A DNA stretch of 64,000 bases, taken from Cliona cf. orientalis (Eukaryota > Porifera > Demospongiae > Clionaida > Clionaidae). The position numbers were made by a program, and so were the translations under genes. The notes beneath the pieces were generated by a model. That model was not told the DNA's origin. It ran no database searches and was given only the letters and a program-made list of their open reading frames with translations. How positions within the stretch are numbered: position 1 is the stretch's first letter; each line of letters starts with the position of its first letter. The stretch lies in the NCBI GenBank assembly GCA_963930775.1, contig OZ005690.1:2340225-2404224 (forward strand), written 5' to 3'. Positions 6,501-46,909 of this stretch are shown piece by piece.

Positions 6501-7871
6501 GCTGATATACTCATGATAATATCAATTCGATGATGATAAGCAGACTGCAGGGATGTCGACAAGTTATCATACTCATGTTGGCATACTTGAATCCCTTCCA
6601 AATTATTGGAATATTGTTGATCCTGGATATCAATATTAAGAGTACGACTGATGCTTCTTGATATACCAATATATTCAATTGTGTAGTGGATAACAGGCGC
6701 ATTAATTATTTCTGTATCATAGACTGATGTATTCATCTGTATGGGAGAACTTAATAATAATAATTATCATCATGTATGATGGTGAATACATACCATATTA
6801 TTATGATTGCCGAAGACAGTTGTAACCATTGATAACTTGTTAGTTTCATACGAATACAAAGGAATCACTTCGACGAAAGGAACATCGGGAGCTGAAATGT
6901 TGAATCAACAGAATGAGTAGCTACACTATATTATTTTAATGTGACTATAATACCTTTTAAGTTTAGGTAAATTATCTGTGGAGTTCCTATCAAAGAATCA
7001 TTACAGATGCTTGTTCTTACAGTAAATGTGCAGTATAATTCACTTTCCATTATAGCTGACCATCCAGAGCAAGTAATAGTAGTGGTGATATCGGTAGTGA
7101 AAGTATCAGGGCACAAACCACAATCAGAACTTATGAGATATTGGGTTGAGCAATCATTGACCACTGGGCTCCACATAAGGGTCACTTCAATTATGGAATG
7201 ATTGTTTATCATATCCAACTGGGTTACCTTTGTGTTGTTTGGTGGTGGATAAGTATCTGCATGCATGTATGATCATTGAAACAAAAATTATAGTCTAAAA
7301 CCTATCAAGATTACGTTGCATGCATGCATGCATGGTCCAGTAGTGATGATAATGTGTATGAATGTATATAGATACAATATTGAGTGCTTGCATGCATGCA
7401 TTCACCAATAAGGATATACTATAGCTGCATAATGTTATTGATCATACCAATCATAATCTCTATATATGTCGATCCAATCATGGTAGTAGTTGTACCATTG
7501 TTATAGATACACTCGACACTATCATTGTCCATGCTGGAATCCACTGTGATGTTGAGCTGTGAAGTGTAATAGCCATCTTCTTCAATCCCAATACCTCGTC
7601 CAGTGATGTTGCCACAGGTTCTGGTTTGAGTGAAAGTGCGATGACGAAGAATTATTTCTCCACCAATTTCAGGACACTGACTAGCTAGTGCTGATCCTCT
7701 CCAGAGTGTGCTTCCTATTCCTGGCTCGCTAGCAATACGGCATTCATAGCTTAATGTATCTCCGGGACACATACAATGATTTGTATTAATTAGAACATTC
7801 CTTGATGCTAATCCTTCAGATATATGCAAGGTATATATAATTAAAATGATAGGTGATATCATATTAAGCAA
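3510..7871 (-). CDS. Gene B: Ig/FN3 receptor with ITIM/ITSM-like motifs and death domain
   Basis: Ten exons join in frame to 748 codons: 7871-7448, 7256-6954, 6891-6794, 6736-6457, 5931-5626, 5540-5372, 5289-5187, 4233-4065, 3973-3695 and 3625-3510. In order the protein has a signal peptide (1-20), Ig-like domain (to 141), FN3-like domain (to 242), a second FN3-like domain (to 368), a membrane-proximal domain (to 470) and a TM helix (about 480-505). The tail has TQYLGV (ITSM-like), GVYSLV, GTYADV and IQYAEL (a canonical ITIM pattern). A death domain follows at about 618-710 with WQNFGLTIG, DYWLRHH, LTWRDVAVAL and LAEK. The last exon carries PELPPKPK, a class II SH3-ligand pattern. Inferred role: a surface receptor signalling through SH2 phosphatases or kinases and death-fold adaptors. 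The start is the least certain part: the signal peptide may instead lie on a separate upstream exon, because CTGAAG just before the Ig domain could be an acceptor. Confidence 0.85.
6051..6200. repeat. Near-perfect palindrome in gene B intron 5
   Basis: The arms begin TAGACTATAGCC and end GGCTATAGTCTA, and the two strands pair over nearly the full 150 bp, with a CGGCTTCGCCG core. It is a small foldback element inside the intron between the second FN3-like domain and the membrane-proximal exon. Confidence 0.7.
6207..6393. mobile_element. Small TIR element next to the palindrome
   Basis: The ends are TTGTACTATGAC and GTCATAGTACAA, a 12-bp exact inverted repeat around 187 bp of non-coding sequence in the same intron of gene B. 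Confidence 0.5.
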
Positions 7872-16300: not shown

Positions 16301-19300
16301 ATTTAGAGCTCTCACTGGTAATTACCGCTCTTATTCTAATACAATGTATGGAAAAAAACTTTTTTTGAAATGCATGCTTTTCTGGTATAGGTCATCAATC
16401 GCTCCATACATGTTATGAGAATTACAGTACCGTTCACTTTGACAAATGAGTGCGAGTGACACGCGTGTAGTGTAGCGCCTGCTCGCGAGTCAATTTCCGG
16501 CAACCGCGTGTACCCGGTACCTGCATTTTAAGTGCATACACTCACGAGGGCACACACAAGTATTCGAGACTCGACAGCAAAAAACCCTGGCTAGTTTGTG
16601 AGCTACGTAGGTATAGTTTAACTTCCTGTCTTCTCTCAACAAGCTTACTAAAAATCTCATGCCTCGGCTGCTCGTGATCACGTTCACAAGTACTTGAGAC
16701 TCATCATGAAAAAAAAAGAGAATTGGAAGCTTATCTTTGCCTAGCGAATCTTTTACTACCTCTTCGCTCAGTAAACTCACCAGTATTCATCAAAAAGTAC
16801 GATAAGTGTGCGAACTGCCTGTTGTCTTGATCTTGCCACCATTGTCTTGTCAGTGCAATAATTGAACCACGCCCTATACATACTCGCGAGTGCGTGCAGA
16901 TATGGGCGAGCGTGCGAGTACTCGCGCTTGCGCGTCGAGGGCGCCTTTTGCATGCGCGCATGAACGTCCAGGCCACACGAGTCACCTCCTCGCTACTTGC
17001 ACTCGTTTGTCAAGTTACCTGTGATCTGTACTGCATGTACATTATATTGGATCAACTACAGTAGTAATAAAGGCTCAATCAGTATCCAGTATTTTGCACA
17101 ATAAGGCCACTGTAATTTGATTCATTGCTTCCAGTCACAGGCCTGCATGCCTATTCTGTAGCCACCTCAAAAGTAGTTATGTATTGCTATAGCAAGCCAG
17201 CTAGTCATGCTCCTTGTAAACCACAGAAAGTAGGCAAGGTTTAGTGGTTACATAATGATATTCATACATAATGAATAATGACCGCCGGCTCCAGACATAG
17301 GAGAGGACAGGAAACAACTATTCAAGTTACAGTGGCCTAATGCTTCATTATCTTAGACCCACAATATGTGCTATGCTTTGAATTTCTGAGAACCCTCTGG
17401 TGCGCACTTTGTTATTACAGTACAAGAGTTTATCTTGATTTTGCTCCATATCTCCTATCGGATATGGGCATTGTAATAGTCCTCATTGAACTTATGCATT
17501 GTGTTTTTGCACGAGTGTGACTGACCTGTTTTCTCCTGGAACTTTGTATGCCTCTATTGCAAAGCTGATAATAATTTTAGCCTCACCAAGTAGTTCCAAC
17601 ATGATGGTAGGGATCTACTATGATGTATATACTATGCCCAAGAAATACTTCTGTCAGATATAGTGCAGTATAGTCCATGCATAACATGCCTCTTCAAGAG
17701 TCATTATTAATAGAGTATAGAATTTAATACACATTTGATACTGCTTGGAAGACACCGAGCTTAACCAATAGCATGAACAGCAGCATACAGTGTATGCTGT
17801 GTTTTGACAAGGAAAAGTTGTGCAGACACAGTGCCTGCCTGTACAACGTATGATCTAATTGTCATTCCTGGAATTCTAATGAATTCAATGTAAGATAATT
17901 TGAATCTGTACATGTAGTTACCGTAGAATCCCACGATTACACCCCCCCCCCCCACCCTCCCTTTGTGTGTGCTAGCATTGGGCAAAAGTGGGGAGGGGGC
18001 TTATTTGCGAGATCCTCACATTTCCACATGATGAACATTACTGACCGTTGAATGCCACGTAGGCACACGATCTCTGTACTTTCTCTGGCTGTTTGATGGG
18101 CAAAACTCGAGAAAAACAACAAAGTAAGGCATAATTATAATAATATTATGACACAAATAGCTAGTTTGCTAGCTGTAGCTACCATTTTTGTTGGCCTATG
18201 AACTCCAAATGTCTACATTTTACTGTTAGAGAGGGGGTGGGGGGCTTATACGCGAGATAAAACTACCTATGCAGGAACTTGAGCTAAAATGCAGTGGGGT
18301 TTATGCGCGAGGGGGGCGTAATTGTGGGATTCTACGGTACTATAAGTATGGTTAACGCATACCATACCGCTTAATGGTAGCTATAATGGAAGGACTAACT
18401 GATCCATTCTGTAGGCTATTTGAAGTCTTGGATTATTGGTACTTAAGAGTACGGGATAGTGTTCCACCCACGCATGGTCAAAGTTCATATGAATAATAAA
18501 TGAGACAGTTATATTCCAGTTTTTATCCACGTTCTTTGCACGCGCACAGTCAAGGCACAGCTGGGTAAGTAGCTCTCCTGATGCCTGCCCCATGGTCCAC
18601 AAAAACGAAAAGCAAACCTGCCACCGTCTGTCTGCAAATGCGGGTAAGTTTTGCAATTAATTTTTCTGCTTCAGTTTTTACCAAGGTAAAAAGACTCTAT
18701 GTAATGACATACAAACGAAACGATAGCTTACGAGTCTCTACAGGGCCAAGTATAGCATTTGAACTCTGTTGAGTTATACGAACAGAAAGCGAACAAAAAC
18801 TTGCTGTTCAGCTGCCATGTGACTCGCTTAATGGCGGCCCTCCAGGACAATACCTTGTCTGACGACTCACCACCTTAGAGTTTTCAAAAAAGCGCTATAC
18901 TTGGCCCTGCTCCGACCGATGGACTATCGTCAACGACAGCAAAGTCAGTTCGTTCGAGTCTCTGGTCTTCAAAAGTTGACGCAAGAAACTTGGACTTTGT
19001 TTACATCTGGAAATGGTCAACGTTCGTTCACGTTTCCGACTAAACCACATTAAAACATACGTGAATTGTGTCCGTGCGCAATTATTTATAAATTGCGCAT
19101 TGAATACTATCCCGTAACCTTAAAGCAAATTATTCACCAGATACATGCATTATTGTGCAGGTGTGCATTGTTTTTTGTCACTATTGACTCGAATTTATTT
19201 TCATATATAGCGGATACATGTAACATTATTGTCGTTGTGAAGTACTATGGCATGTATGTGATAGCTGGACCGTACCATACAAAAAAGAAGATTGGTATAT

Positions 19301-22300
19301 AGGGCATCTAGTAATGACATTGTATTGTTTGCTTGTCATTTGGGACTTAGGGAATAGACCGACTCAAGCCATGAATGAGCTTTGAATATCAACTTATATT
19401 AGCTATGTTGATGAGTCTGCACTGCTATGCAATCACTAGTGATATCACTTGCATGCCATATAATTATGTAGACCCAGAGTATGTTTGCTAGTAGCTAGTA
19501 ATGCCCTCCCAACAAATATGCATGGTATCATGAGTAGATTAGATGGGAGTGTTGAACGGCATGCAAATGCGTTCCAGGAGGATGACGTAGATAATACACG
19601 AGTAAATGAATCTGAGGTCATGTAGGTGAGTAGAGTGGGTGTGTCCCACCCAGGCCACCATAGCACCAGCTGCACTATACAGTTGTACAGCGGCAGTCTG
19701 CATTTATAAGATGTTGATAGTGCATGGCAGCCTTGATTACAATTTGTCTACGTCATCCTACCGGAACGCTGTTACTACATTTGTACTATTGTTCAACACT
19801 TCCATCTAATCTACTCCTGATGGTATACATATACAAGTATAGGATATATACATATATATATATGTATATCACAAGGTAGAGATCTCTACGTGATGTGATT
19901 TAACATGTAGTTTGTAATATTTAATCATGCTGAACCTCTTCAAACTGTCCTAATATGAAGGAGACACTGAATGTTTGGCTTATCGCAGAGTGTGGCTACC
20001 ACATCTTGGATAGCATCTAAGAGTGGAAAGGGAACACAGACACGCTAATGACATGAAGATCAATCGTTGTTATATTATGTCTCCGAACATAAATCGCAAA
20101 TTTCAATGTAGCACTCGCAAAACATGTTTTTCAGGCAAAATCACAGAAATTTTAATGTACCTGCAAATATTTTTCACCTTGAGATATATCACTAACGTAT
20201 AAAAGTAAGCGCTCTCTCCAATCTGAGCATAAAAATGGGTATCTGCATGCTCAGAGTGGGCTGCTGGCATGGATACCATTGCTATTAACTATAATGATCT
20301 GTATATGTGTACACAGATTCTCTCTCTCCTCCCAAGAATGTTCATTTACTTGATGTATCACCTGAAGTGTTAGTGTTCAGTTGGACTCCTGTACCTTTAA
20401 ACTACTCAGCATTACGTTATGAAATTCAAAGCAGCTGTGGTGAATGTCCTACTTTTACGAACTCAACGTCGGTCACTTGTATCATACAAAAGCCACTGGA
20501 CAGAATGTGCGGATTTGCTGTTAGAAGTGTTGTATGCAATAACATGGTTGGTGGCTGGAGTAATGAAATTGAAATAATGTTAAGAGGTATAATTATCACT
20601 ACTTATTGATTGAAATTGAATTTGTGTAGCTAACCATTATTCTGTTCAATGCTACGTGCAGTTCCAAACCCTCCAATGTTCTCCAAGATCTCATCGAGAT
20701 ATGATCCTAGAAATTTACTTGGGCTAGATATACAATTCAGCCACTTGAGTAAGGTAAGCCTAAAGTGATTAGCAATCTGTTATAAATTTACCTATACACC
20801 ACACTTCTAATTACCGTACCGTCGTGAAAGAGGGCTCACTATAGAATATCGGCCCACTGCCCTCAATTTCCTGCTAAGGTCTAAAGTACATGTATACTCA
20901 AATATGCACCCATATGTAGCCACTCTGGAACACACATGTGCGATCACTGTTAAGTGGGCATGATTATGATAGCAAAAACGTACATACTCACTTTTTTGTG
21001 TCAGTTCTGCGGCTATTTGGGTTAGGGAACCAGGACATCTTGGAACGTTCGCCGGCAATCCTGGACATCCCTGGACTCTGGACGTAGTCTCTATTATATC
21101 CCCAGTAGCGATTTACTTTCTGTGGTTATTAGGTAATTGTGGTGTAACCTATGGTGAAATTATGATGCAACTTATGAGGTAATTATGAAAAAATCTAGAG
21201 ACTCGCTGGAGCCTTCTGGGACTTGACAATCAGTAAATATATAGAGTATCTTACGCGTGTATCCAGCGAATACATTACAAGCTGAGCACCACTTTCTCTG
21301 AGAAGTACCGTTGGTTAAACTTCACAAGTTTTCTTGGCTTACGTAATGCCATGGATAAATAAAGCTAGCCTTGCGCTATACTGTAAATCTGGAAATTTTC
21401 GTTGTAAAAATATTTTCGTAGTTGATGGCGGCTACCAAAATTAATCTTACGAAAATTAGCATGCACTACTAACGCTAATGCGGTAAGGAGTAGCTCCTAC
21501 GAAGATTTCTTTATACAAAAATTTATCATACAAAAGTTTCGTTACACGAAAATTTCCAGATCTACGGTATATAGCACGCATCGTTGTCACAAGGAGCTGG
21601 TCCGCGCGTGACTACAGTAGTGCGACCAACCTGAAGTTCGGAAGGAATACTGTGCTGTCGAGTTCGTCTCAGTGATTGAAGCATCGCAACTTGGTTGAGA
21701 GTCAATCTTAGACGCCATCTCCATGATTTCTGGGGCCTGTACGCATTCTGTTGACGACCTTTTACCACATGCACCATTACACTATGTGGCTACTGGGGAT
21801 ATGGTCAAGTATTCATTTCAAATGAGGCAAAAACTGGACCGGGTGAATCCATGCAACAAAAATTAATTTGGCCTGGCCTTACCTCATACATTATCTTACA
21901 CCATTATAACTAACTTATAACCATAGAAAAGTAAATTGCTACTGGGGATATAATAATTACCTAACACCTTAGTGAGATTTAGGGCATATTATTATAGTCA
22001 CAATATGGATGCTTGGGTACTGTTCTTTGTAGATCAGAGTATAATATTACGGGGGAAGGCACCTGGCTATGTCACTATCTAAACTGAAAGTCTCTATAAT
22101 ATTATGTACATACCTAAACTCAATAAAGCACTTTGAGAGTCACTGCCTGTTTACACTGTCACTGCATTGACAACTGACCAGCAAAGCAATCATTTGTGGT
22201 AGGTGCGCATAGACAGGTAACAGCTGCACATGCACCTCTACATCACCACATGACCACGAACATGACCACTATATTATACGTAATTCCCTTATGTTGGTGT

Positions 22301-25300
22301 TTGCGAGTATATCCCTGAATGTGTACTTTCTCTCAGATGATCCCCGTCAAAGCGGCCCCTGAGAAAGGCCCGAGCTGGGGTACTTGTCCAGGATTGCCAT
22401 AGGGTGTCCTGGGGTTAGGGGATGGGGATAGGGTTAGGGTTAGGGAACCAGGACATCTCGGGACGTTCGCCGGCAATCCTGGACATCCCTAGCCAGAGTC
22501 CCTCATGAATACGCCGCCATAAATTCGAACTAGGACACATTGACAAACTGTGCATGCTCCATATACGCGTACAATATTGGGGCACGCGGCTTGAGCCGGT
22601 TGACCTTCACCTGCCATGTGCTCGACTGAATAGGGAAATCCCCCTGCCCTGAAAGCGAGCTCGCTAGAGAAAGTGAACTGAGAGAAACGCCATAATGATA
22701 TCATCGGATATTCCACCTACGCTAGGTTCAAATTCTGGGTCCCAACAACCTTTCATGCGAGCTAAACATTTTGAAGCAGTCTTCACCCCAATTTCATCAT
22801 AATTTCATCATAACTTTCATCATAACTTTCATCATCATTTCATCATCACTTCGTCATTAATTACCTCATCGCGAGGCCGAATTCTTTTTTTGGAATTGGG
22901 ACTCTTCCACTCTGGTTCTCGACCCTTCAATTGCAAATGCCAGTTATCGACAGTCGGTACGTCTTATCGGCACACCGTATACTTTCAATACAGTCAATTA
23001 TCGTCACTTGGAGCTTTGTCATCACAGTGCATGCAATTCAAGAGTAAGAAAAAAAATACTAGTAGGTGCATGAGGCAACTTTATGTGCATAGGTGAGCTA
23101 GTTCGATCTTTATCGTTTTTTCAAACTTGGCAGAAGCGTCTTGGGAACGGTACCATCGCGTCTTTGTCCCTGTATTGAAAAAATAAGACACCATGAGGGT
23201 CATCTTGTCACAAATGGAGCAAATCCTACCTTTAAAAGTCCAGCCTGAAGCAGAGAAGCGAGTCGCAATTGATCACACAAAGTTATTATTAAAAGCGCCA
23301 CACCCACTGCCTATACTAAGGTCCTATGTTGATAATTGATACCCGTATTTCCAACAGTTGGTACCTGTCAGTAATTGGCACTTTATGCTACTGTCAGTAG
23401 CTATATTAACTTGCAAATAGTAGACTATGAGCCAAATAAAAAAGGCTAGGAAATGACAATAATGACCAGGATCTTTTCTGTCTTCATGAAATGTAGTGAC
23501 AGGTAAGCTCTTTAAAATTTGTCACTTGTGATAAAAATACACCGTGTCTGTCAATGAAACATGGATTATTCAATCATGGTTTCCAGCCACTCCCACTTAA
23601 TTTTCAATCACTCGACCCAATCTTTTGATCAGAAAATCCGAGCAATAACAAATTAAAATTTGGAAGCTGTACTGTGCAATCAAATTCATCTCTGATTGAA
23701 GCATCGAGATTTATCACATTTGAGGTCGAGAGTCATGCAGTCTTAGATTCCATCTCTACGATTAGGGCATCAAATGTGCACACTGTGTTGACAACCTTTT
23801 ACCACACGCACCATTATTACCATGCAGCTACTGGGGCTATTTAATAAATAGCACAAAAATTTACTTATAAAGCCTTGCCTAGAGGCAAATCTTAGTTTAA
23901 TTACGAACACATGCTATGTACATGTGCCCATACTATGCGTGCATGGATCTATAATTATTATTAGATAATGGATGTCAATAGAAATGAGGTATACCATATA
24001 GCCGAAAATATTGGCGGGAATTAAATTTGGCAGTCGAGCCCAAAATCACTATTACAAGAATATTAGCGGATTTAAATTTGGCAGTTCGGTACAGGATGGC
24101 CATACGTATATATATATGTGAGAGGAAAATTTTGGCAGATTTTAATTTGGCGGTTGTAATGTAGACTGTCAAACTGCCAAATTTCCAGCTATACGGTAAT
24201 AATATTATTATAAGGAATTTTTATAAATGGCTGTCTACATAGGTATAGCCATTCTGGTACAGTTAGGCATATTATGTTTGTGTAAGTTTTAGCCCAAAGT
24301 AATTGCTTTCGCATGTATATACATTGTAATACTTTTCTGTATCTTCTTTATTATTAGGATTCCTTTAATATATCCAGTGGTATCGATGGTTCTACTATAT
24401 ACTACACTGTAACTTTCAATAACTCTATAACTGGTAGAATATGTGCTTCAACAATCATTTCACCTTCATCATGCTCTGATGTTTGTGCTACCTCTCTTCC
24501 ACTTTCGTGTTTTCCTTTGAGTGGCGATGTCGTAGTATCTGTATCAGCTACAAATGCCCTTGGAAAGGGACCTACTAATTCGGTCATCATAGGTAATAAT
24601 TAATATTCATTGTTAACCCTTGGCGCATTTGCAAGGGGTACAGCAATCATTCTCTGTGTGTATGTGTCTGTTACCAAGCTAGCTGATATATACATCACCT
24701 GGTTTGTATTTCAAAAACAAGGTGCGATTATGCTTTTCATGATTGCTGTGTGGATTTCATTAAAAGGCTATGTTCGAAAGTTTTGGCGACATTTGTTGAC
24801 CACCACTGCCTTCTTTACTTAATGAGCTCTCAATGGATATGTAAGAGAGCAACTGCTGCATTTCAAGAAGAATAGTGCATGTGTAGGTCTAGCAATAATT
24901 TTAAGCTTATAACTCAGACAAGTGATTTAATACTGATCATATATAACTATGCTTCTTGGCTTTAGGTGTGATTCGATCTGATAATTTGGCATACAAATGA
25001 TATATACTATTACATAATTATGTGCAACCAGTATTTAATTCATTCTTGTGGTAACGATCATAAAATTATTAATTTACCAGGCCGGTATTGCTGCATGGCT
25101 TAGCCTGCAATTTGCACATCAATAATGCAATGTTCCAAGGGTTTTACACAATAGTACTTCATTCTAAGATGATTTATGCACTTATTTTGTTAGGGAATAC
25201 TAATGAATATGTCCTTGTTACTGCTGACTCAACTGGAAGGATTACATGCACGTTTCTTAACCAACAAGATAGCCAGATGGAAAAATCATGTAGTGTTTTC

Positions 25301-28300
25301 TATGGACAATGTGCTGAACAATTGTCTTATAGTAGCACATTCCATGCAACAGATGATTCAATAACTGTCCAACTTAACAATGTCATAGAATCTGATCTAC
25401 AAGATTATTGCTATGCCACAATTGCAAACAATGGGACTTTTAGTGTGCTGATTGAAGGAAGTTTCAGCTCCACCGTAGTGACCTTGAGTAAGTGATAGTA
25501 GCTAATTACTATTGGTGCGTGTGCAACATACATACGCTATGTTAGTCTAGCTATTATCACTGATTACAGAGGTTACATGGCATACGTGCATACCCATGTC
25601 ACATTCATTGGTTGGTAATGGTTGTCATATAGCTACATAGAAATATGATCCTGCGTATGAGCTCCCTAGAGATGTTGAGGGGGGAGCAATTATGGGAGCT
25701 CTCCAGACATGTCTTCAATAATGACACTGCTCATATTTCTTGCAGATGATGATACACTTATATCGGCACTTTCTGTCGCTGTGGCATTTGCGGGAGTGGT
25801 GGCGCTCTTATGTATTGCATACATTGTGTTTGCCTTAATTCAGCGCAGAAAATCCAACAAAGTGATTCACATTAGTGGTATGTATACATGCACAGGAGTA
25901 GATAAGGGTTATGATTGTTGAACTTACTGTTAGAATAACTTTTTAGAAACTTGGTGTAGTACTTGAGCAATTATTGCTGTCACTATCATAACAAGCGCAG
26001 GTGCTGGATAAGAGCTAATAGAGTTTCCAGTCATCCACTGTCTGAAGCAATTAGCTACTGTACTACAGTGCTAACATCGTCTGCCCACATCATCCATAGG
26101 TATAGTAGTAAGACTACAGCAATCAGTAGTTTACAGACACAACTTGTGATGACAAGTTTCGGAAACGCAGTAGTATGCAGTTCAACACTCCTATCCCCTT
26201 ATCTATACTCCTGACATGCAGTATATTAAAGTAGCAGTTTAATTTAATTTCAAATTGTTACAGATCTTATTCCTGATGGTGCTAACTCAACTAAACTTTC
26301 AAAATTAACTCGTCAAAACTCTTATCAAGTATCTCAAGTTCCATCTCAACCATCTCAGCATCATGAAGTCTTTCGTGCTCACGTTGTGTTTGATTTAGTA
26401 CATTTACCATGGAAGCTTTTAAGTGCACTCGAAGTTTTCAAGGTACTAGTTGAGCATGCAAGCAGGAAGGCCCACTTTTTACTCCTATTATGATAATGTA
26501 TACAACGGAAATTATTTTTCAGATAGTTATAATTATAGTCTGAGTCCTTACCTGGAGGGCACAATACATGTGCTCTGCAGTATCTCGTCCCAGCCATCCA
26601 TTTCAGAAGGCTCACGATTGGTCAAACTTGTAGTGCTGTATGCACAAATGAGGGTGGCCATAGAGAGACATTCAGCATGAAGCGCCACTTAGCAGGCCAC
26701 CGAGCCTCAAGCAAAGCAAAAGACGAGTTCTGGTCTTTGTAATAGATTCGACATTCGAGCAGAGCAAGGAGGTTGCCATTACACTGTGAGAACTAGTCTG
26801 GGGTAGGGCTGGTACCCCAGACTAGGTGAGTCCGAGCAGCTGCTCTTGGCCTACAGTGAGAGGTGTGCATAGTCTACGCCATAGAACAAAATTCATTGCT
26901 GCTTTCATCTGCGCATGCATGCACACTGTACTATATATAACTGGCAATCTTGATTGTATACAAGTACCTGTACTGAGCATGCTGTTACTGCTCATGCATG
27001 CTCAAACATACTTGTTATATACTATAGGATATGAATATGGTGGATATAAGGATTATACCTGTTGACAAGACAACCAGAAAGATTTATGTTCAATTTGAAC
27101 AAGATCTTTCAATGACTGAGGTAGAATATATTTACAAGAACTGCCAGAAGATGACTCAAAATATTCAAGTTTTCCAGCCTGCTGAAGAAGAATTTATGGG
27201 TATATCTTATAGTGTAACCCAGGTTTATGTACATATAGTTGATATTGGTTTCATTGTTCCACAGATATTCATGATGAGTCTGAAACAAATGAGTCTGCTG
27301 GTATGTGCTATATATATAATTATATTATTGTCTATAAGTATACCAAAGAGACCAGGTGGTGAAAGTTGCATGATTGTGCACCTCCATCCCTATAAAATTA
27401 AATAGGACATCTACGGTTCACTTATCCTATAGCTATTGAGTTCCCTGTGTCAGTTTACTGCTGCAGAGATTTAGGTAACCTTTGGGCCATGTTTTTATTA
27501 TTCCTCCATCCCTACTTAATATAAAGTTTACCGACTGTGATACTCGTGACACAATATAGCTGCTTTGAATATTGCCCCTGTCTAAGCCGAATTAGTGTAA
27601 GGTGTGTAACGACGCAAATGCAATCCCGACCCATTCGCGATACGCCGGTACGTACGCTGCCACGATCACTGGACGATATGGATGGGAGGGGCTGGGAGGT
27701 CAGGGGATGGGTTGCGAATGGTTAGCATGCAGAGTTAGTGTGGGAGGTCTGGGGATGGGTTGCGAATGGTTAGCAGGGTTAGTCTCTAGGGTTTGCATAT
27801 ACGTGGACTGGAGGGGCTGGGAGGTCCGGGGCTGGGTTGTGAATGGTTAGCAGGGTTAGTGTGGGAGGGGCTGGGTTGTGTAGGGTTTGTCTATAAAATA
27901 GTTGAAATAACGGCTGCCAGCAGCAACAACGGTGGTGGCCAAGTGGTTGGGCTCTTATGTATGGGACGGAATACAGAGGGTTCAAATCTTGCCGTACACT
28001 TTGATTTTTTTTTTTCCCTGTCGAATTTTTCTAAGTGTTGATAGATAGCATTTGCGTCGTAACAAGGTGCACCACCAATGGGCCTCTTTAGGAAGATTAC
28101 TATACATGTAGCTACTATAATTGGGGCGAGCCTAAGCGAGCCCCACACTAATCAGTTCTACGAGAAAACTGCTGTACTTATGTATGTATGTATGTATGTA
28201 GCGATATGTCAAACATGTGCTCGCTAGCTCATAACGCATGCGCATAATTGAATCCTGTTATGTACCCGAAACCCGCGCGCCATAGGCGCACAGCCCAGCC

Positions 28301-30660
28301 CCCATACTGGGGGAGCTGGGCTAAATCGCACAATATTATAATAAGCAGCTAAGGTCAGATACGGTTTGGGTTTAGGGTAGTGTTTGACACACAAGGGTTA
28401 GTACTACTATCGTCTATAAAGTGGTGACAAGGCAGTGGCGTTCACGGTGGTATAGTGGCTGGGGCCCTGGTGTATGGATCTATGGACCCCAGTTCGATTC
28501 TTGCTCTATTCATTGTTTTTTTCCCTTTACTCTGGAAATTTTCTAAGTTGGGAGCGAGTTTCAGGCATATAATGCCGCTCCGCATAGTTATCATGATAAA
28601 GATCCTCAACGTCAGCGACGTTTTAACTCTATTAATATAGCTCAACAAATGATGCAGCTCGTATCCATTCGAATAGATGGCTAGAAAAAGTAAGCCATCA
28701 GTACAAGTATCTACAGCAAAATCGAAGACTAGGCCTATAGTCTGGGTGCCTTAAATTATGATCTAATTTCACTAGCTGTACAATTCTATAGCTAGTAGCC
28801 AGAGTAGCCTCATGATCAGTGGCAAACTCCCGACATGCTGGGGATGAATCATGTGTGGTATGCAACTGTTATTAATTTTTTACTCCTCATCCCTTGGTCT
28901 TTATAGTGACAGTAGACTGAATCAGCTGACCAACAGATACCGTAAATCTGGAAATTTTCGGTGTAAAAATATTTTCGTAGTTGATGGCGGCTATGAAAAT
29001 TAATCTTACGAAAATTAGCATGCACTATTAACGCTAATGCGGTAAGGGGTCGTTCCTACGAAAAAATGTTTGCACGAAAATTTATCATACGAAAGTTTCT
29101 TTACACGAAAATTTCCAGATCTACGGTAGCTGCTTGTACATGTACTAGGGATTGAAGATAGTAGAAGGGCCATCCCAATCCTCCCCCTCTACTATTGAAG
29201 TCTATTACTATGAGCGAAGGCTCACCCCCTCGATGATTTACATCTCCCTAGTAATAATATGTATACTTCCATGCACTATCTATTTGCACTACAGTATATA
29301 AATATAGGCGACAATTCCCCCCAAAATCTGGATCCCTGTATAAATTCTTGGAAGGTGTCAATGAACTATCTCAAAAAAATGTAAGTTTTATTACGTGCAT
29401 GTACCTCTTTACTTCTTTCATGAGTTACCAGATCTTACACTGTATAGAGACCCAAATCACAATGATATCAATTATTGTGGCCTTGATAGTTACTGTTATT
29501 ATATCCCTAGTAACAAGTAACTTTTTTGTGTTTATGGTGTAATTTATGATAAACCTATGGTATAATTAATAAGGTAATAATTATGACAAAATTGAGGGCC
29601 TCGATGGAGCCTTTCTGAGGCTTGAAAAATAGGTAAATATGTAGTGTACCACCAGCGAGGCCCTGAATTACCTCATAGATTATATTATAGGTTACACCAT
29701 AATTACCTCATAATCGCAGAAAAGTAATGAAAAACTTAGACTACATCCCTCGTCCCTCATGACTGTGCCTACTGCACGCCGCCATTATAGACCTTAGACT
29801 CATCAACAAACCGTGCATGCTCCGTATACACCTATATTGGGGTGCATGGCTTGAGCCAGTTGATCCGGATATGACCTCCACCTGCCATGTGCTGTTGATT
29901 GGGACTCGGGAGGTAATGCCATGCCTGATCATAGGCACATGGTTCAAATTATAAATGAATGCACAGGAGTGCAGAACCCTCACCGCTTAATGCATGCATG
30001 ACTCATGCGCATGTAGCTAGATGACTGACCAGCAAGGCACAGAATGGCAGTCACTGAGGTAGGTGTCATGTAAACAGACTGGCAATAGCTGCTCACTACT
30101 ACACCACTGGGCAGAACTTAACGTGACCACTCTTGCTTGATGCCGGGTATACCTCAGATGCGTACTGTCTCTCAGACAATCCTTACCATTTAACACAGGA
30201 GGATTGGGACGGATGGACAAAAATCACCAATCGATTGTAGTAACCCTCAATCCACCTACGCTTTGCGGCAAGGGTTAATTAGCTAGTTAGGCACAGAAAA
30301 GTTGCATGCATGATAGTAATGCATGTCACAACACTGGTTGCCCACATAATAATAATATTATTATGCTATTGGGGATTCCCAAATATTTGCAGCCCTTTGA
30401 ATGGCTCCTATGCGTGTAGGTAGGTACAATAGCAAGTAGAAACTCCTATAAAAATTTAATACTGGTAAGTAATTATCAGGGGCCCTACTTACATATATGT
30501 CTCTTTAATTAATGTACAGAGCCATTATGATTTGATAAACATTTGGAGGATAGTTGTTCAACCGTCAAGTCACAATGATGGGGATGCGGTTATAGAGTTG
30601 CAGTTTGTCCGTGAGTTACCATCCAACTGGGTTGAAGAATTTGATAAGATACAGTTTTAA
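10360..30660 (+). CDS. Gene C: Ig/FN3 transmembrane receptor with tandem ACT-like tail
   Basis: Thirteen exons join in frame to 697 codons: 10360-10376, 12336-12409, 15823-16185, 20317-20586, 20662-20753, 24358-24592, 25194-25487, 25746-25877, 26264-26442, 27028-27199, 27265-27300, 29295-29380 and 30520-30660. Order: signal peptide split over exons 1-2, Ig-like (31-151), FN3-like (152-241), second FN3-like split by a phase-0 intron (242-350), membrane-proximal domain (351-448), TM helix (about 453-478) followed by QRRK, then a tail of about 215 residues. The tail reads as two ACT-type units. The first runs FRAHVVFDL, PWKLLSALEVF, MVDIRIIPVD, RKIYVQFEQ, TEVEYIYKNC. The second has SGSLYKFLEGVNEL, INIWRIVVQPS, AVIELQFVREL, NWVEEFDKI. 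The ACT call is mine by eye, about 0.55 sure; the exon model is much firmer because gene D repeats it. Exon 1 was chosen because its 17-nt length and phase match gene D. Confidence 0.85.
10388..10800 (+). repeat. Repeated segments in gene C intron 1
   Basis: The phrase CTAGGGAAATGCACA followed by GTGGGGCGAGCC occurs at about 10397 and 10588, and reversed relatives occur near 12110 and 12290. A GTGCTATTGTGA(C/T)AGGGTTT stretch near 10686 is also found near 36088 in intron 1 of gene D. The shared intron sequence supports C and D being duplicates. Confidence 0.5.
12050..12070. repeat. (TA)n microsatellite
   Basis: A run of TA dinucleotides, followed by CATGTATATATAT, in gene C intron 1. Confidence 0.9.
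12410..15822. other. Gene C intron 2, mostly featureless
   Basis: This is a 3.4-kb intron between the signal-peptide exon and the Ig exon. It holds many TACATGTA and TGCATGCA palindromes. At about 14999-15190 lies a reversed copy of the repeat seen at 43098-43281. A short run of GATA/GACA-like units lies near 15593. I see no embedded gene. Confidence 0.5.
17104..17338. mobile_element. MITE with 17-bp TIR
   Basis: The left end is AGGCCACTGTAATTTGA and the right end is TCAAGTTACAGTGGCCT, one mismatch from an exact inverted repeat. A related, decayed copy in the opposite orientation is at about 49070-49240. It lies in gene C intron 3. Confidence 0.6.
17919..18339. mobile_element. MITE, TACCGTA type, 421 bp
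   Basis: The ends are TACCGTAGAATCCCACGATT and AATTGTGGGATTCTACGGTA, a TIR of about 28 bp with TA at each end. The inside has a C-run and two segments on a GGGGCTTAT..GCGAG theme. Non-coding, in gene C intron 3. Confidence 0.7.
18741..18909. mobile_element. MITE with CAGGGCCAAGTATAGC ends
   Basis: CAGGGCCAAGTATAGC on the left and GCTATACTTGGCCCTG on the right bound 169 bp of non-coding sequence. I could not define a target duplication. Confidence 0.6.
19520..19835. repeat. Inverted repeat, arms about 75 bp
   Basis: The arm near 19525-19595 (ATGAGTAGATTAGATGGGAG, GTTCCAGGAGGATGACGTAG) reappears reversed near 19755-19830, with some differences. This is a diverged foldback in gene C intron 3. 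Confidence 0.5.
21097..21802. repeat. Family b element, interrupted by a MITE
   Basis: The ends are ATATCCCCAGTAG and CTACTGGGGATAT. Without the 191-bp MITE at 21379-21569 its length is about 515 bp, close to the 479-bp copy at 2385-2863. Inside gene C intron 5. Confidence 0.6.
21379..21569. mobile_element. MITE, TACCGTA type, 191 bp
   Basis: The ends are TACTGTAAATCTGGAAATTT and AAATTTCCAGATCTACGGTA. It is inserted in a family b element; the copy at 2385-2863 has no insert at the matching GCGCTA site. A sister copy is at 28938-29128. Confidence 0.75.
22490..22905. mobile_element. Family a MITE copy
   Basis: It shares AATACGCCGCCATAAATTCG and the following sequence with 2884-3292 at high identity, with worn ends. 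A short TTAGGG run (about 22430-22445) lies just before it. Confidence 0.6.
23992..24198. mobile_element. MITE, TACCGTA type, 207 bp
   Basis: The ends are TACCATATAGCCGAAAATAT and the complement of a TACCGTATAGCTGGAAATTT end. The inside repeats AATTTGGCAGT-like units. A piece of a relative lies near 44640-44740. Confidence 0.6.
27606..28063. mobile_element. TIR element with internal tandem repeats and a tRNA-like segment
   Basis: The ends are GTAACGACGCAAATGC and GCATTTGCGTCGTAAC, one mismatch from an inverted repeat. Inside, a unit of the type GGAGGGGCTGGGAGGTC, GGTTGCGAATGGTTAGCA recurs about four times, and about 27930-27995 has tRNA-like A-box (GGCCAAGTGGTTGGGC) and B-box (GGGTTCAAATC) sequences. 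Gene C intron 11. Confidence 0.55.
28440..28520 (+). repeat. tRNA-derived SINE head
   Basis: An A-box-like GGTGGTATAGTGGCTG and a B-box-like AGTTCGATTC are spaced as in a tRNA, with a pyrimidine-rich stretch after them. The arms do not fold into a clean cloverleaf, so it is read as a tRNA-derived repeat, not a working tRNA. Confidence 0.45.
28938..29128. mobile_element. MITE, TACCGTA type, 191 bp
   Basis: The ends are TACCGTAAATCTGGAAATTT and AAATTTCCAGATCTACGGTA. It sits in a repeat whose reversed copy at 36968-37200 lacks the insert and has a single TA, so the TA target duplication is seen directly. Confidence 0.8.
29490..29912. repeat. Degraded family b plus family a copy
   Basis: TATCCCTAGTAACAAGTAAC onward resembles family b, and from about 29740 CTACATCCCTCGTCCCTCAT resembles family a. 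Both are truncated. Gene C intron 12. Confidence 0.45.
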
Positions 30661-32839: not shown

Positions 32840-34904
32840 TTAAAGTTGGATCACCTCATAAGCCACATTTCTTTCTGTATCAATTATTGTTGGTGGCTCA
32901 TTGACTGATGTTGGCTCATTGTTAGCTATAGGGTCCTTTTTTGATCTGATAAAGACCACTGTAAATATTACCGAGAGAAGAGCAACAAGAAGTAAAACTA
33001 CCACTCCCATGATCCCAAGAGAGATTCCAAACACCAAAACACTAACAGTAGACTGTGTTGCAGTATCCATATCTATAATAGTGAATGATAAACATGATTA
33101 ATATCACTAACCAAACATTATAATATCGCAGCCGTTATATACTATAATAATTATATAGGCATACTTTTATGCTTGATGAATGTTCCTTCTACTAACGTTG
33201 AGAAAGTATCGTATGTGGCTGTCACAATGAAATGGTATTCATTGGGAAGTAGGATCTCTGTAGCTAAGTTTAAAACAACAGTATCACTCCACGATGTCTC
33301 AATGGGAGACTGAATGTAAGGTTGACTATTCCCATATGAAATACTGCATGTACACTGAATGCTTTTATGAGGCTGCCATTGGAGAAACATACAAGTGGCA
33401 CGGGTAAAGTTGGCATCAAATGTTACCTCCACATGTACATTTCTACCCCCTGTGTATAGAATAACAAAAAATAAGGGATACCTTAATCATTGTGGATTAC
33501 CTAGAGTAAAATTAAGAGAGGGTCCTCTTCCTATTACGTTAGTACCAAATACATGAACGATCATAGTGTCTACTGCACTGGGACAAGCAGATAAAGAAAT
33601 GTTAAACTTTAGTATTTGGCTGCAAGCTTTATTTGGAGTACACATTGAAGCTGGGATATCAGTAGAGCCACATGTCCTTCCAGAAACTGAATCCACATAC
33701 ATAACTGTATAAACTAGACTCATCAATAAATTCTGTCCATACAATATGTTGAAAGTTTCCTATAATAATATCATGTTTATGTTAGTAATATAATGATCCC
33801 TATAATATAATTTATGATATTATGTGAGTGTGTATAGAACTTACATTGAAAGTAATTATTGTGTTTACAGCTGATAAACTTTTTGTTGTATGCGAATACA
33901 CAGGGACAACATTAAGCATAGGAGAAGCAGGAACTGAAGGAATTAAAGCAAGCACAGAGCTGATACTACATGCAATACTAATAATTATACATGCAATGCC
34001 ATAATAGCTGAATGTACAGCTGCAGGCTTACCATTAAAGGCTACTGCAATTGAGGTAGTATTTCCCTCTGGGGCAAGTGAATTGCAGACACTTGTACGTA
34101 CAGAAAACATGCATAGTTGACCAATTAACACTTCAGTACAAATGACATGTACAGTTGTGTCAGTAATGCTAGTGTTAGTCCTGTTGGGACATACACCACA
34201 ATCAGAAGTTATAATATAAAACAGTACCGGACAAATGGTATTAGTAACCACTACACTCCATTCGAAGGTGACCTGCATTAAGAGTTCATCCATTACCGCT
34301 ATATCACTTATTATGACATCATTTGGTGGTGGGAAAGGATCTATATTATTATTTATGGACACAATCTATTATGACTAGCTATGTACTAAAAGTATGCATA
34401 AAGTTTCACCTTTTATAGTCTCTATAAATGATATTCCAATTATAGTAGTCGTACCATTATCATAGATACACTCTACACTTTCATTGTCCAAGCTGGAATC
34501 CACTATGATGTTCAGCTGTGAAGTATAACAGACATTTTCTTCTATCCCGATTCCACGTCCAGTAATGTTGCCACAGGTTCTGGTTTGAGTGAAAGTGCGA
34601 TGACGAAGAATTATTTCGCCACCGGTTTCAGGACACTGACTAGCTAGTGCCGATCCTCTCCAGAGTGTGCTTCCCACTCCTGGCTCACTAGCCACACGAC
34701 ATTCATAGCTAAGCATATCTCTGGGACACACACAATGACTTGTGTCCAGTAGAATATTCCGTGATGCCAATCCTACCATAATAATAATATTATTATGCAT
34801 AATGATAACAATTATGCCATGCATATCAGATAGCTATAGTTACCTATGTCGAAACTAATAAATGTTACCAATAGTACAAAAGTGAAAGATCTTTGCAAAA
34901 GCAT
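32840..34904 (-). CDS. Gene F: Ig/FN3 receptor with short ITIM-like tail
   Basis: Seven exons join in frame to 533 codons: 34904-34844, 34772-34410, 34340-34032, 33933-33845, 33759-33501, 33449-33165 and 33072-32840. Order: signal peptide (about 1-20), Ig-like domain (to 141), FN3-like (to 244), second FN3-like split by a phase-0 intron (to 360), membrane-proximal domain (to 455), TM helix (about 463-490), and a tail of about 40 residues ending AYEVIQL. VAYEVI fits the ITIM pattern (V-x-Y-x-x-I). There is no death domain; the stop follows directly in the TM exon. The gene is a close paralog of A. It is head to head with gene D, 631 bp apart. A longer alternative tail by splicing out of the last exon cannot be ruled out, but no matching downstream exons are seen. 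Confidence 0.87.
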
Positions 34905-35535: not shown

Positions 35536-38500
35536 ATGTCTGTCTTGCCAAGGTAAGTATAAGGTAAATGAACCAGTTATGAAACAGTGAGTTATAAACT
35601 GACTTTTAGATCTAAATTATTTAGCTCTTCGTTTCATAACTGGTACACTTGTGTTTCATAACTGGTTCACTTCCCTTAATCTACTACTGAGCCAATTCGT
35701 GTGACCAGGTGGGTCAGATTTAATATGGCTAAATCTACAGTGTCTTGATTATTATCAAGAGTAAGCTTAGTTGTAGATTTAGCCATAATTATTATTATTA
35801 ACGCTCGGCGCATGCGCACGAGGGGTAATTACAGGTAGTCTGTCTGTCGACATAGAGCCAAGAGGGTCCCCTTCAAAGTTTGCATGCTGCATATATATCC
35901 ATATTATCAAAAAAGCAACGTCAAAGTGATCCCATAAGCATGCTCTAGACTAGGCACATAAGAGATCTAGATCTAGAGTGTGCCTTTTGATTGATCCAAG
36001 TTCCCCCTCTTCGAAATATTTCAAAACCCTACTTATGGCTAATCTACTCTTGCTGGTATAACTTGATGGTATCCCAAAATTTTTATGTGCTATTGTGATA
36101 GGGTTTACACTTGGTCTACCTTGTACAGCATCAAAATGATATGAATTGTCTCTTTGTATGTTATTATATGCAGGAAAATAAGGTTTCTGCTAAGGATCTG
36201 TTGTCTGTTGGTACTGATAGATGGTGTATTTGGTAAGTCTAGCTATTCATAGTCTCGTACCCAGCCTCTTTATCGCACGTGGAAAAAGAGTCTGGTGAAA
36301 CGCGTATTCAATTTTGGTTCCATACGTACGTGATGTATTATGACACAGCACAATGAATGTAATTATAAGCGATGGCGTGATCACTGTTTAATATTATTAA
36401 TCGCGCAAAGTGTTTGAAAAGCACCTACTGTAGGCTATGGCACCAGCGGGACCCTTAGACAGTGGAGTCCGAGTGCTATGCTTGTCTCGTTGCCTGATTT
36501 GTATCCAAAAGGACGGTCAAACATTGATAGTAAGCTTTCAAAAACAGGAAGATTTCCTGGTAGAGATAAAGAGAGATAAACACATCCTTGCCGGCTACAA
36601 TGTAGCTTACCGCCTTCGCCTGAACTTCACAGACACTACCATAACTCAAATTAAACATGGGGTAGCTTCGATGATCGCTTGCTGAATGACAGTCTAGCTG
36701 TCCAACGACTACCATGTAGCTATCTCCTACTAGTAAAGTGCAAAGTGCACGGTGGAGCATCACAATCTTTTCTTGATGATGTGGCACCGTTCTGCAATCT
36801 GATTGGACACGGCGAGATCTTACCGCACGGAACCAAAATTGAATACGCATTTTACCAGACTCTTTTCCGCGTGCGATAAAGAGGCCGGGTACGAGACTAA
36901 GCTATTCATGTGTATAGACTTCTAATCTCACGAGCCAAACCTTCACACATAAAAATGCGTATAATGATACTAGGGTGATGTAAATCATTGCAAGGGTGAG
37001 CCTTCGCTCACACTTAGTAGAGGGGGAGGATTGGGATGCCCCCTCTACTATCTTTGATCCATAGTACATGTACAAGCAGCTATCTGTCGTTCAGCTGATT
37101 CAGTCTATTGTTGCTATTAAGATCAAGGGATGAGGAGTACAGTTAACAGTTGCGTACCATGCATAATTCATTCCCAGTATATCAGGAGCTTGGCGCCTAC
37201 TTGTGTGGCTACAGAACTTTATAGCTAGCTATAATATTATAGATAATTAAAGACTAATTACCAAGGCAGGTGTTGAAACAGGTGATTGAGAAGTGAACGA
37301 AGAAAAAATCTCAGGGATTTGAACCCAGGACCTTCTGAATTCTAGTCGGACACTTACCAACTGAGCTACTGATCCCTGATGGCAACAGAGTGTAGGATAG
37401 GTGGTATGCATCAGTTGGTAAGAATGTCTGACTATAATTCAGAAGGTCCTGGGTTCAAATCCCGGCTTAGTCCTGAGATTTTTTTTTCTCTTCCTTCACT
37501 TCTCAATCGCCTGTTTTAGCTAGCTATAATATTATAGCATTACTGAAATTAGATCATGATATAGTCAGACTATAGCCTTCAAGTTTGCTGTAGATACTTG
37601 TACTGATGCCTTACCTTTTCTTGTTACCCCGCATGCGTGCATGCATGCAGCAGGGGGTAAAGCAATCAGTTTATCTGTCGTCTGTTGTCTGTCGTGAAGT
37701 TTGGAAGGTATTCTGCACTGTCGAGTTCGTCTCTGTGATTAAAGCATCGAAATTTGTCTCTATCAAGGTTGAGTCAGTCTTAGACTCCATCTCCATGATT
37801 TCTGGCTATGTGTATGCATTTATTGATGACCTTTTCAGTGTACACTACAACTGCCGGAAATACGGTTTATACAGTACATATGCACAAATTGCGCCCGTAT
37901 ACCGTCTAAATTAGTTTCTGTTAATCCAAGAAGGCTGTGCTTGAGCTCAAAATGTAGCTCGAAGGTAGTACTAAACGATGGTATAGATTTCAAGGCCATC
38001 AGCTGGCAAATAAGCGAGCTAACAGCGCCTGAGGCATGCCACCTCTCATAGGTATGGTTTTATGTGGTACATTTTAGTAACAGCAAAGCTTTGGCTTACC
38101 GGCTTTAAGGCTCCGTGATTGCGTGGGCGGGATGATGTCGGAATTTGCAGTTTATAGGTACCAATCTAATCTACGTCTAGTCCTAAGGCTGATTAGCGGT
38201 GTTTCACTGTACAGAAGTCTTTGTAAGACTTTGTAGCAAAGGTAATGGTCGTTTTACGACCACGCCCCCAATCCTTGGCGTGGTTGAACGCGCATGTGCG
38301 CGAGCAACGTAAGCATCTTTAGCGCATGCGCACTCTGGTAACACGCGTGGATTGCCATGGCTACCGCCAATTCCTATTACGTAATGATCTGTCGCGAACT
38401 GTACTTGAGTACTCATGACTACTGATTGATCTTGGCACACTTTTTGTTCATTTCACTTGGAGTCTTTCTTGATACAGAAATTTTTACCATGGAATCATCT

Positions 38501-41500
38501 GAAGTAAGTGTAAGTAGAACATAATAATTATTATTATCATAATTTATATTACCTGTATGGTAATAAACTGGTACGCTTACTTGGACCTACCATAATATCT
38601 AACCTGCTCTACCCCACCTTACCCTACCCTACTTACAAGTAAGCGTAGCCGTCCTATGTAATTGTTAGATCTGCGCCACTATGTTGCCGTATTAATTTTT
38701 ACTAAGCGTGTTGGTCAAGTGCTTGGTGTGCACTAAATAGAAAGAGCATGGCTGCTAGATCCTGCATGAGCATATTATACAGCGATNNNNNNNNNNNNNN
38801 NNNNNNNNNGCCTTAACCTGGCATAGAAGAACCCTTGAACTATTTATACAACGATCGAGAATGATTTTGCTCGAGTATCTTCAGAGTAATAGAGACATCA
38901 ACATCGAAGTAAATACTGACGCAAGCTTCAACAGCGCGTAACTTTTGTCCAGAATGTAGCAATTTTGTCTAGTAAACGATAAATAGAAGCTCTACCATAG
39001 CGCCAGCTACTACCCAAACTCGAAAGACTCCTGCTCTAGTAACAAAACTTCTGTAGCCTTCGCAGTACAGCCACTATCTCGATCGCTTGAGTCTAAGGTC
39101 AACTTCAAAAAGTGGTACATTTTGACAGTAACAGACATTCCCAGACCGTTCTGAAACTTGAGATTTACAATCCTTCCATATAGAGCCTTGGAATGGAACC
39201 AGTACCTACTACAAGTATAGAGAACCAAGGCCCCAGAATCTCAAAAAATGAAGCCTAGCTAGTTGCTGATCAAAGTGTTGCATAGATTACTGACTTTGCG
39301 GGCGCAAACACGGAGTATTGGTCAACCACACGGTCATGACCCCACTAGATAATGATATTCACGATGCCAGGTGTGCTGTAAACCACTACTATGCATCCTC
39401 TTCCGCTTTTCAGATGGTCAATCTATTAATAAGAACCCCCTCTGATAGATCCTGGATCCGCCTCTGATAATACATGGTTTTCTGGACAGTCACTGGCATA
39501 ATATTATAGTGGCTATACCACTCCCAAACTTATGGTTTTGACGACCATTTCCCACCGAATTGTAGTGTCCCGGCGCGGGGAAGCGCCTATATACTCCCGG
39601 CGTTCTGCTTTCATCTGCGCATGTGCACTATACTAACGGTTGACATACAGCTAGGGAGATGACTGTTTAAAGCATGTGCATGAGCTTACTGTAACTCATG
39701 CATATTAGCCATAATATTTTAGTATTATCCCGGGCCATGATTGTGACATTAAACATACTTGTAATACCGTATTTCTTCTAAAATTCGGCATGGAAATAAT
39801 ATTGCTTGAGCTTCGCCAAATTTTCAGGGGTTAATGTTCCACATTCCATCCACGTGCACTTTTTATTCCCGTTTATGGCATATACATGTGACAACCTTTG
39901 TCGAAAATTAGAGACTACTAATTTTTCAATCATTCCATAAATAACTAGAGCTCTATAGAGCACATACCCCATACGCTCTGTAGCCACTGTAGCGTAGTGT
40001 TGCAACATTCTGAGGCATACATGTAGCTGTTTCATGACATGACAACCCTTTCCAACACCATGCTTGAGCATGCGCAGTCGCATCTGCATACTATTATGCT
40101 AAAAGAGTGGGTGTGGTCGATAAACCACAGGCATGCTGAACAGAAAATGCACGATTTGTAGCACTAGTAAACCTTTTTGAGCAATTCGAAGCGCGTACAA
40201 ACCAGTTTTTCACCGATATCTACCGATTGGTTGTGCTTATAGCACGCACAGACGCCTAGAACCCGAGATCTGGCGATTTTCGTGCCGACAATAACAACGA
40301 CAACAGACGGACAAACTGATCGCTTTACCCCTTGTGCATGCGCGTGGGGTAATTAGAAGGGCCAAAGTCTTAGAAGTGCAATATTATCAGTGGCGGATCT
40401 AGGGGGGGGGGTAAGGGGGGTGCAAGTGTACCCCCCTTTGGGCTGCATCTAACACTAAGAAGTATTGATGATAAACTAAATGGGAATCCCCCCCCCCCCC
40501 CCTTTCTGGCTATAGATCTAAGAAAACTGCTGCTGTGGCTCACCTTAGAATGCTTTAGAAGAAATTCGTTCGAAAACAGATCGATTGGACTGGTAGGGCT
40601 GGTAGTTTGTCTCAAAAACGATAGAAGTGGGCGTGGTTTTGCCCCAAAGTGGGCGTGGCTTCTAAAATTTTGCACGCGCTTTGCGCGCAAGACTGTATTA
40701 CTACCCCCCTTCTAGAAATCCTAGATCCGCCACTGATTATTATATTATTAAATTTATTATTATTAACATAGGTGCTCTCTGTGATTCACAAGAATTCAAG
40801 ATCATAGATGAGTGTGTTTGCCCTGGATACACTACTGCACTGTATAAGTGTATAGCAGTTGGGAGAGGATTCACACAGTGGGCCGGATCTGCATTCAACT
40901 GTCCAAATATTGGTGATGAGATATTTTTATCTCATAATGATTTTGATAATGGAATACGCAAGGAGTGCAATAATGGAGCAATTATTGGACAAAGTCTTCA
41001 AGTCAATGGCAGTTGTTATACTTCCCAGCTGACAGTTAATACTTCCACAAATCTGAATGGGACAACCATAGGGTGTACTTATGACACTGGAAGTGCTCTG
41101 GAACCAATTGGTGCAACTACTCTTACAAGTAGAACAGGTATTATGTATTATTATGTCACTGATATACAAAAGTTGGCCCTCTCTATGAGGGGCATTTTCT
41201 ATGGCTGCTGGCATGGATATCATTGTTGTAACTATAATGTTTTATCCACACATAGATTCTCTCTCTCCTCCCAAAAATATTCGTTTACTTGATGTATCAT
41301 CAGGAATGTTAGTGTTCAGTTGGACTCCTGTACCTTTAAACTGCTCAGCAGTAACTTATGAAATTCGAAGCAGCTGTGGCGAATGCCCTACTTTAACTAA
41401 CTCAACAATGGTTACTTGCATCATACATAATCCTCTGATCCAGTACAGAACATGCAGATTTGCTGTTAGAAGTGTTATGTGTAATAACAGTGTTGGTGGC

Positions 41501-46850: not shown

Positions 46851-46909
<59 letters not shown>

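Follow-up and report, generated by a model that had tools for sequence, protein, structure and literature searches.

Paralogous Ig/FN3 receptor genes of a sponge with putative ACT-like modules in their cytoplasmic tails

Two tandem genes, C and D, in a stretch of 64,000 nucleotides from Cliona cf. orientalis (the window) appear to encode Ig/FN3 surface receptors, and we lean slightly towards a reading in which their tails are made of ACT-like modules that act by protein contact. ACT domains are regulatory modules of enzymes and of other soluble proteins. The first half of the tail (half 1; C1 and D1 in the two genes) is probably truly related to ACT domains, whereas the match of the second half (half 2; C2 and D2) is weak. 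This reading rests on tests against shuffled and natural background, which are given below together with the gene models and the alternatives.

Results

Gene models of the two receptors

The rebuilt model of gene C spans 15823-30660 (+), and its tandem paralogue, gene D, spans 40772-50461 (+). Gene D was first detected via tblastn and repeats. Both models begin at the N-terminal Ig-like exon, the upstream signal-peptide exon not having been located, and without that exon they comprise 665 residues in C and 658 in D. All 11 modelled exons and all 10 intron phases (1,1,0,1,1,1,0,1,1,0) were common to C and D, every one of the 10 introns had GT-AG borders, and neither model contained an internal stop. 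The five tail exons of gene C that a preliminary description of this DNA had proposed were found at the positions given there (exons 7 to 11 below, with putative strand and helix labels). Gene D is absent from that description; it lies in the same window with the same exon series and phases.

15823-16185 (+), C exon 1, N-terminal Ig-like, open with GT-AG; 15826-16125 is 89% identical to D 40778-41077
20317-20586 (+), C exon 2, FN3-like, Pfam fn3 E 0.006, below the cut-off; paralogue exon 41256-41531
20662-20753 (+), C exon 3, first part of a second FN3-like domain, labelled by eye
24358-24592 (+), C exon 4, second part of that domain, labelled by eye
25194-25487 (+), C exon 5, membrane-proximal Ig-like, labelled by eye and from the preliminary description
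25746-25877 (+), C exon 6, transmembrane (TM) helix and QRRK, 19-residue hydropathy 2.79
26264-26442 (+), C tail exon 7, linker, then beta-1 and alpha-1 of half 1
27028-27199 (+), C tail exon 8, beta-2, beta-3, alpha-2 and beta-4 of half 1
27265-27300 (+), C tail exon 9, short acidic linker, phase 1-1; paralogue 46568-46609
29295-29380 (+), C tail exon 10, beta-1 and alpha-1 of half 2 (SGSLYKFLEGVNEL), start set by the paralogue
30520-30660 (+), C tail exon 11, beta-2, beta-3, short alpha-2 and stop of half 2; same stop position in D 50321-50461
40772-41137, 41256-41531, 41585-41676, 43567-43801 and 43855-44148 (+), D exons 1-5
44969-45121 (+), D exon 6, TM
45227-45345, 46319-46493, 46568-46609, 47507-47592 and 50321-50461 (+), D tail exons 7-11

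The ectodomain of gene C would run Ig, FN3, FN3, Ig-like, in which the Ig and second FN3 labels come from pattern or from the preliminary description; the Pfam hint in this ectodomain was limited to the first FN3 and was below the cut-off.

The alignment of C with D showed 443 of 644 residues identical. Six of the 10 introns were without a match at E 1e-3, in three the match was confined to a short segment close to the acceptor, and intron 8 (65 nt) matched across almost its full length. The tails, each about 190-205 residues long, were 65% identical and under purifying selection as a whole (dN/dS 0.40, Fisher P 1.1e-5), which indicates that their frames are coding and did not arise by chance. 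Purifying selection was clear for half 2 (dN/dS 0.15, Fisher P 1.1e-8; 0.115 for tail exon 11), and half 1 was indistinguishable from neutral (dN/dS 0.76, Fisher P 0.55). The first FN3 exon gave 0.55. The dS between C and D was uneven: the ectodomain and half 1 had values of about 0.2-0.4, the TM exon and half 2 values above 1, a mosaic history that gene conversion perhaps produced.

A cluster of related receptors in the window

One receptor family is densely clustered in the window: at least 11 N-terminal Ig-like exons, homologous to each other, were counted over the two strands. Genes C and D belong to this family, having ectodomain exons in common with it and one TM helix.

1566-1922, 7452-7850, 34405-34752, 53432-53761, 56040-56408, 60024-60425 and 62678-63043 (-), Ig-like exons
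15823-16185, 40772-41137, 56971-57321 and 63569-63877 (+), Ig-like exons, the first two being those of C and D
3690-4028, 54658-55002, 58534-58839 and 61270-61617 (-), Death-like domains in four sister receptor tails, Pfam E 1.4e-4 to 0.013, all below the cut-off
32843-33097 (-), sister receptor with TM helix and a short tail with YEVIQL, by eye
52645-52980 (-), sister receptor with TM helix and a short tail with YEEITQL and YVSAV, by eye

The sister receptors have Ig/FN3 ectodomain exons homologous to those of C and D. Their tails carry a Death-like domain and/or tyrosine motifs, in place of which the C and D tails have the putative ACT-like modules. Pfam listed no Death domain in the receptors at 32843-33097 (-) and 52645-52980 (-). 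Motifs of the type YADLGP, YEEIQ, YADVQV and YAELNH were seen by eye near the Death-like domains. The window also contains the following elements.

21378-21569 and 28937-29128, MITE-like elements of 192 nt in gene C introns, 91% identical, inverted ends TAAATCTGGAAATTTTCG / CGAAAATTTCCAGATCTA
27679-27869, imperfect G-rich repeats containing GGTTAG units, gene C intron
37302-37377 (-), predicted tRNA-Ser (AGA) between genes C and D

Resemblance of half 1 to PheA/PAH-type ACT domains

The comparison was made with a profile of the ACT domains of prephenate dehydratase (PheA) and phenylalanine hydroxylase (PAH), built in this analysis from 27 rows: 24 cyanobacterial PheA ACT domains (24/24), that of E. 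coli PheA, and two PAH sequences taken out of 18 PDB chains. Half 1 scored 17.1 bits in C and 20.3 bits in D, and aligned nearly end to end, over profile positions 13-85 (C1) and 13-87 (D1) of 94. None of 5,000 shuffles of each sequence reached these scores (maxima 9.5 and 9.7). They were likewise reached by none of 885 natural sequence windows (best 7.6; those from L001 were dropped from the original 922 for the ACT and PAH profiles) and by none in a larger set of 4,554 (best 13.1; 3,877 of these received an ACT-profile score row). Being paralogues, C1 and D1 do not count as independent matches.

The composition of the profile was then varied. In four of five profile versions, both C1 and D1 stood above every shuffle and all 885 windows. 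Leaving out the PAH rows, leaving out 10 presumed Prochlorococcus-like rows, or keeping nine diverse rows only gave 13.1-17.6 bits, with no shuffle or window as high. The 10 presumed Prochlorococcus-like rows by themselves gave 5.8 bits for C1 and 8.2 for D1, equalled by 18 and 5 of 5,000 shuffles and by 2 and 1 of 885 windows. The two-row PAH profile was weak, at 0.3 and 2.0 bits, which 58 and 17 of the 885 windows matched. A general ACT profile, made of 27 rows from 26 of 30 loci plus E. coli PheA, left half 1 at background, at -0.8 bits for C1 and -1.5 for D1, levels that 275 and 458 of the 885 windows reached.

Profile-to-profile comparison by hhalign agreed with these scores. C1 and D1 combined matched PheA/PAH ACT over 69 of 78 columns with a probability of 92.4, E 5.2e-7 and a score of 39.1, and none of 400 column shuffles was as high (maximum 19.8); against the general ACT profile P was 0.28. 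Taken singly, D1 (34.1) and C1 (25.2) both exceeded all 885 natural windows, whose maximum was 22.5. When 21 other true ACT domains were scored in the same way they gave 11.2-27.2, so that D1 topped all 21 and C1 topped 17. At the level of single exons, the ACT profile was used to score all 1,591 unspliced open stretches of the window (25 codons or more); ranks 1, 3, 4, 7 and 8 went to tail exons of C and D, and no single exon was significant (best E 0.11). Profiles of the tail itself found no third copy in the window. These results put half 1 clearly above both the shuffled and the natural background, support the ACT likeness claimed for it in the preliminary description, and place it with the PheA/PAH type.

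Curated databases and families of similar fold

Pfam gave no ACT match at E<=10, although two matches to PF01842 had been expected, and NCBIfam gave no ACT match for the tails. A search of PDB sequences with whole-tail and half-1 profiles found no ACT; its six matches had E 0.54 or worse and were of unrelated kinds. Pattern scans of viral contigs and genome contigs confirmed no relatives of the tail. The weak Pfam matches were PF25570 for C1 (E 0.014) and PF16924 (0.022) and PF02505 (0.024) for D1; those in NCBIfam were NF041668 (0.077) and NF047669 (0.081) for C1, and TIGR03260 (E 0.0024) and NF033473 (0.02) for D1. The match of D1 to TIGR03260, the McrD model, was local (residues 31-72, 46319-46486) and was not listed for gene C.

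Since the literature makes the TRADD-N domain a serious rival, profiles were built for TRADD-N, RRM, HMA and acylphosphatase as well as for ACT. The RRM profile drew on 18 of 20 loci and the HMA and acylphosphatase profiles on 20 of 20 each; for each family, windows from its own loci were dropped from the background, which left 629-745. RRM, HMA and acylphosphatase gave half 1 background profile scores and were rejected as its identity. By hhalign, C1 and D1 combined gave P 0.037 to 0.53 with the four families. When 78 members of these families (20 TRADD-N, 18 RRM, 20 HMA and 20 acylphosphatase) were compared with the PheA/PAH ACT profile, none scored above 19.1; human TRADD scored 14.5 and NCOA6 15.1.

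The most serious alternative is that the tail forms a separate family of ferredoxin-like fold, whose likeness to ACT reflects a common strand-helix pattern and not descent. The failure of the curated ACT models and of the general ACT profile to find the tail is consistent with this, as are the local match of D1 to McrD and the weak match of half 2. However, other families of the same general fold did not match half 1, and their members stayed well short of D1 and C1 against the ACT profile. We regard a separate family as unlikely, though it deserves more weight than the other alternatives, and prefer an ACT-related half 1.

Half 2 as a possible shortened copy of half 1

The preliminary description had taken the tail to be a tandem pair of ACT domains. 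Its first member is borne out by the half 1 match, but the match of its second is weak, half 2 being without a clear beta-4 and giving only 5.1 bits (C2) and 4.1 bits (D2) with the PheA/PAH profile. These scores were equalled by 21 and 42 of 5,000 shuffles and by 17 and 36 of 4,554 natural windows, and were not significant by HMM. The hhalign comparison of C2 and D2 combined gave E 9.8e-4 with PheA/PAH ACT and 0.0052 with the general ACT profile. None of 400 column shuffles was as high as the former, but its score, 22.8, was nearly equalled by the best natural single window, at 22.5. Singly, C2 (21.3) and D2 (19.2) were both below that window. A whole-domain match to the PheA/PAH ACT profile was thus found in half 1 only.

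Half 2 had also been described as repeating half 1. With its exon start placed at 29295, half 2 includes a first-strand-like segment, VYKYRRQF in C and VYSYERQF in D; the exon start reads V-YKYRRQFPPKSGSLYKF in C and is kept as V-YSYERQFPPKSGSLYKF in D. It is not a full repeat, however, for it stops past the short alpha-2, at a point that C and D share, before any clear beta-4. Each half consists of a phase-1 exon (beta-1 and alpha-1), a phase-0 intron and an exon with beta-2, beta-3 and alpha-2, a layout that exon duplication would produce. When the halves were compared directly by hhalign, P was 0.085 with the same register of beta-2 and beta-3, which is only suggestive. The link between the halves is weak and comes mainly from exon structure. 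Taken together, half 2 is somewhat more likely to be a degenerate second copy of the half 1 module than to have another origin.

An AlphaFold2 (AF2) model of the intron-interrupted half 1 had a mean pLDDT of 34.6 and placed strands at 5-9, 227-233 and 238-243 and helices at 15-31 and 249-260, with no fourth strand. In this low-confidence model the exon 8 region thus appears as two strands and a helix, without the beta-4 assigned to it above.

Ligand motifs and possible function of the tail

The motifs reported for Phe-binding ACT domains are GAL and IESRP (PMC3828330, PMC10845154). At the GAL position, half 1 has WKL and half 2 has GSL. At the IESRP position, half 1 reads IRIIP in C and TLIMP in D, and half 2 reads IVVQP in C and ITVQP in D. 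Neither half therefore carries the pair of motifs. Unlike PheA and the aromatic amino acid hydroxylases such as PAH, which are soluble enzymes, C and D would hold the module in a membrane receptor tail, largely without GAL and IESRP and with a shortened half 2.

The sensing of aromatic amino acids, suggested earlier for this tail, is not supported, because GAL and IESRP are largely lost in both halves. A broader version, in which an amino acid or other metabolite at the ACT interface would switch receptor pairing and tie recognition to nutrient state, draws on the Phe-binding class being the nearest profile and on half 2 retaining the G and L of GAL and the I and P of IESRP. Against this, half 1 retains just the L of GAL and just the P of ESRP, half 2 has VVQP (C) or TVQP (D) in place of ESRP, and half 2 is without a clear beta-4. 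We consider such a sensor improbable.

Pfam listed no Death domain in the C and D tails. Tyrosine hexamers of ITIM-like form numbered two in the C tail and one in the D tail, all inside half 2. Since a Death domain is lacking and the hexamers occur only within half 2, the tail probably acts by protein contact. Self-association of the ACT-like modules would be the simplest use left, and we propose it tentatively. C and D would then be type I surface receptors (Ig, FN3, FN3, Ig and one TM helix) of a local multigene family. Half 1 would be a complete module that has diverged, with the ACT domains of PheA and PAH as its nearest match, and exon duplication would probably have given rise to half 2 as a shortened further copy. 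The modules may pair within and between receptors, and this pairing may set or read clustering once the Ig/FN3 ectodomain binds a partner. Small-molecule control of the tail is conceivable, but so few residues of the ligand motifs survive that we do not expect it.

The TRADD-N alternative

In a further alternative, the tail would be a module like TRADD-N, an adaptor domain, would belong to the NCOA6 clade and would recruit TRAF-like partners. TRADD-N is structurally related to ACT, with which it shares the RRM-like fold; in the sponge Amphimedon it has undergone a great expansion beside Death domains and is found in 357 proteins of varied architectures (PMC8195603). The receptors adjoining C and D carry Death-like domains, and the WKL of half 1 also occurs, by eye, in human NCOA6, whose sequence matches PF13820. 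The TRADD-N, NCOA6_TRADD-N and TRADD-like_N families (PF09034, PF13820, PF20694) thus offer a related fold in a metazoan immune-type setting (PMC8195603).

The profile tests did not bear this out. The TRADD-N profile, built from 20 of 25 loci of cyanobacterial TRADD-like_N together with human TRADD and NCOA6, and so with sponge TRADD-N outside it, gave -0.9 bits for C1, -0.1 for D1, 0.2 for C2 and -0.2 for D2, all within background. By hhalign, C1 and D1 combined gave P 0.037 for TRADD-N as against 5.2e-7 for ACT. PF20694 found human TRADD at 49 bits and NCOA6 at 64 bits and did not list the C and D tails. Half 1 lacks the uS turn motif of TRADD-N and has VDKTTR / LNVTTR at the turn; the PSS of half 2 is ambiguous in this respect. 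In having no TRADD-N profile match and no uS turn in half 1, the C and D tails differ from these families. After these profile tests with cyanobacterial and human sequences, TRADD-N was rejected as the first-choice identity, and we give a TRADD-N-like tail little credence.

The TM helix and the tail belong to one protein

TM exon and tail exons form one gene, as the preliminary description had assumed. The best 19-residue hydropathy in C lies at the TM exon, which ends in QRRKSNKVIHIS, and the model has no second such segment; the C and D models have one strongly hydrophobic segment each. The phases of the tail exons fit the TM exon in both genes, and in D the two are joined in a single open frame.

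44956-45378 (+), unspliced open frame of gene D with the TM helix and the first tail exon, the 105-nt intron in frame and stop-free

Because the TM helix and the first tail exon of D share this frame, TM helix and tail are parts of one protein in D and, by comparison, in C. That receptor and ACT-like exons are two adjacent genes duplicated together is very improbable: the frame of D exon 7 is open upstream and holds an ATG, but this same frame carries the TM helix across the 105-nt intron, the first tail exon has no in-frame ATG in C or D, gene C has no upstream ATG ahead of a stop in that frame, and the exon phases agree in both genes.

Significance

Among the matches listed in the open-access literature there was no receptor with an ACT-like cytoplasmic tail, which falls short of proving that none is in print. 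A more far-reaching proposal is that an animal immune-type receptor family swaps its cytoplasmic modules, that one branch obtained its ACT pair from an aromatic amino acid enzyme, and that an intracellular amino acid or metabolite sets pairing and signalling; we offer it as a long shot. Genes C and D provide two paralogous tails and hence a directly testable protein. If the reading is true, an ACT-like receptor tail beside sisters with Death domains and tyrosine motifs would show the exchange of output modules among animal receptors, and the modules exchanged could include a metabolic regulatory fold.
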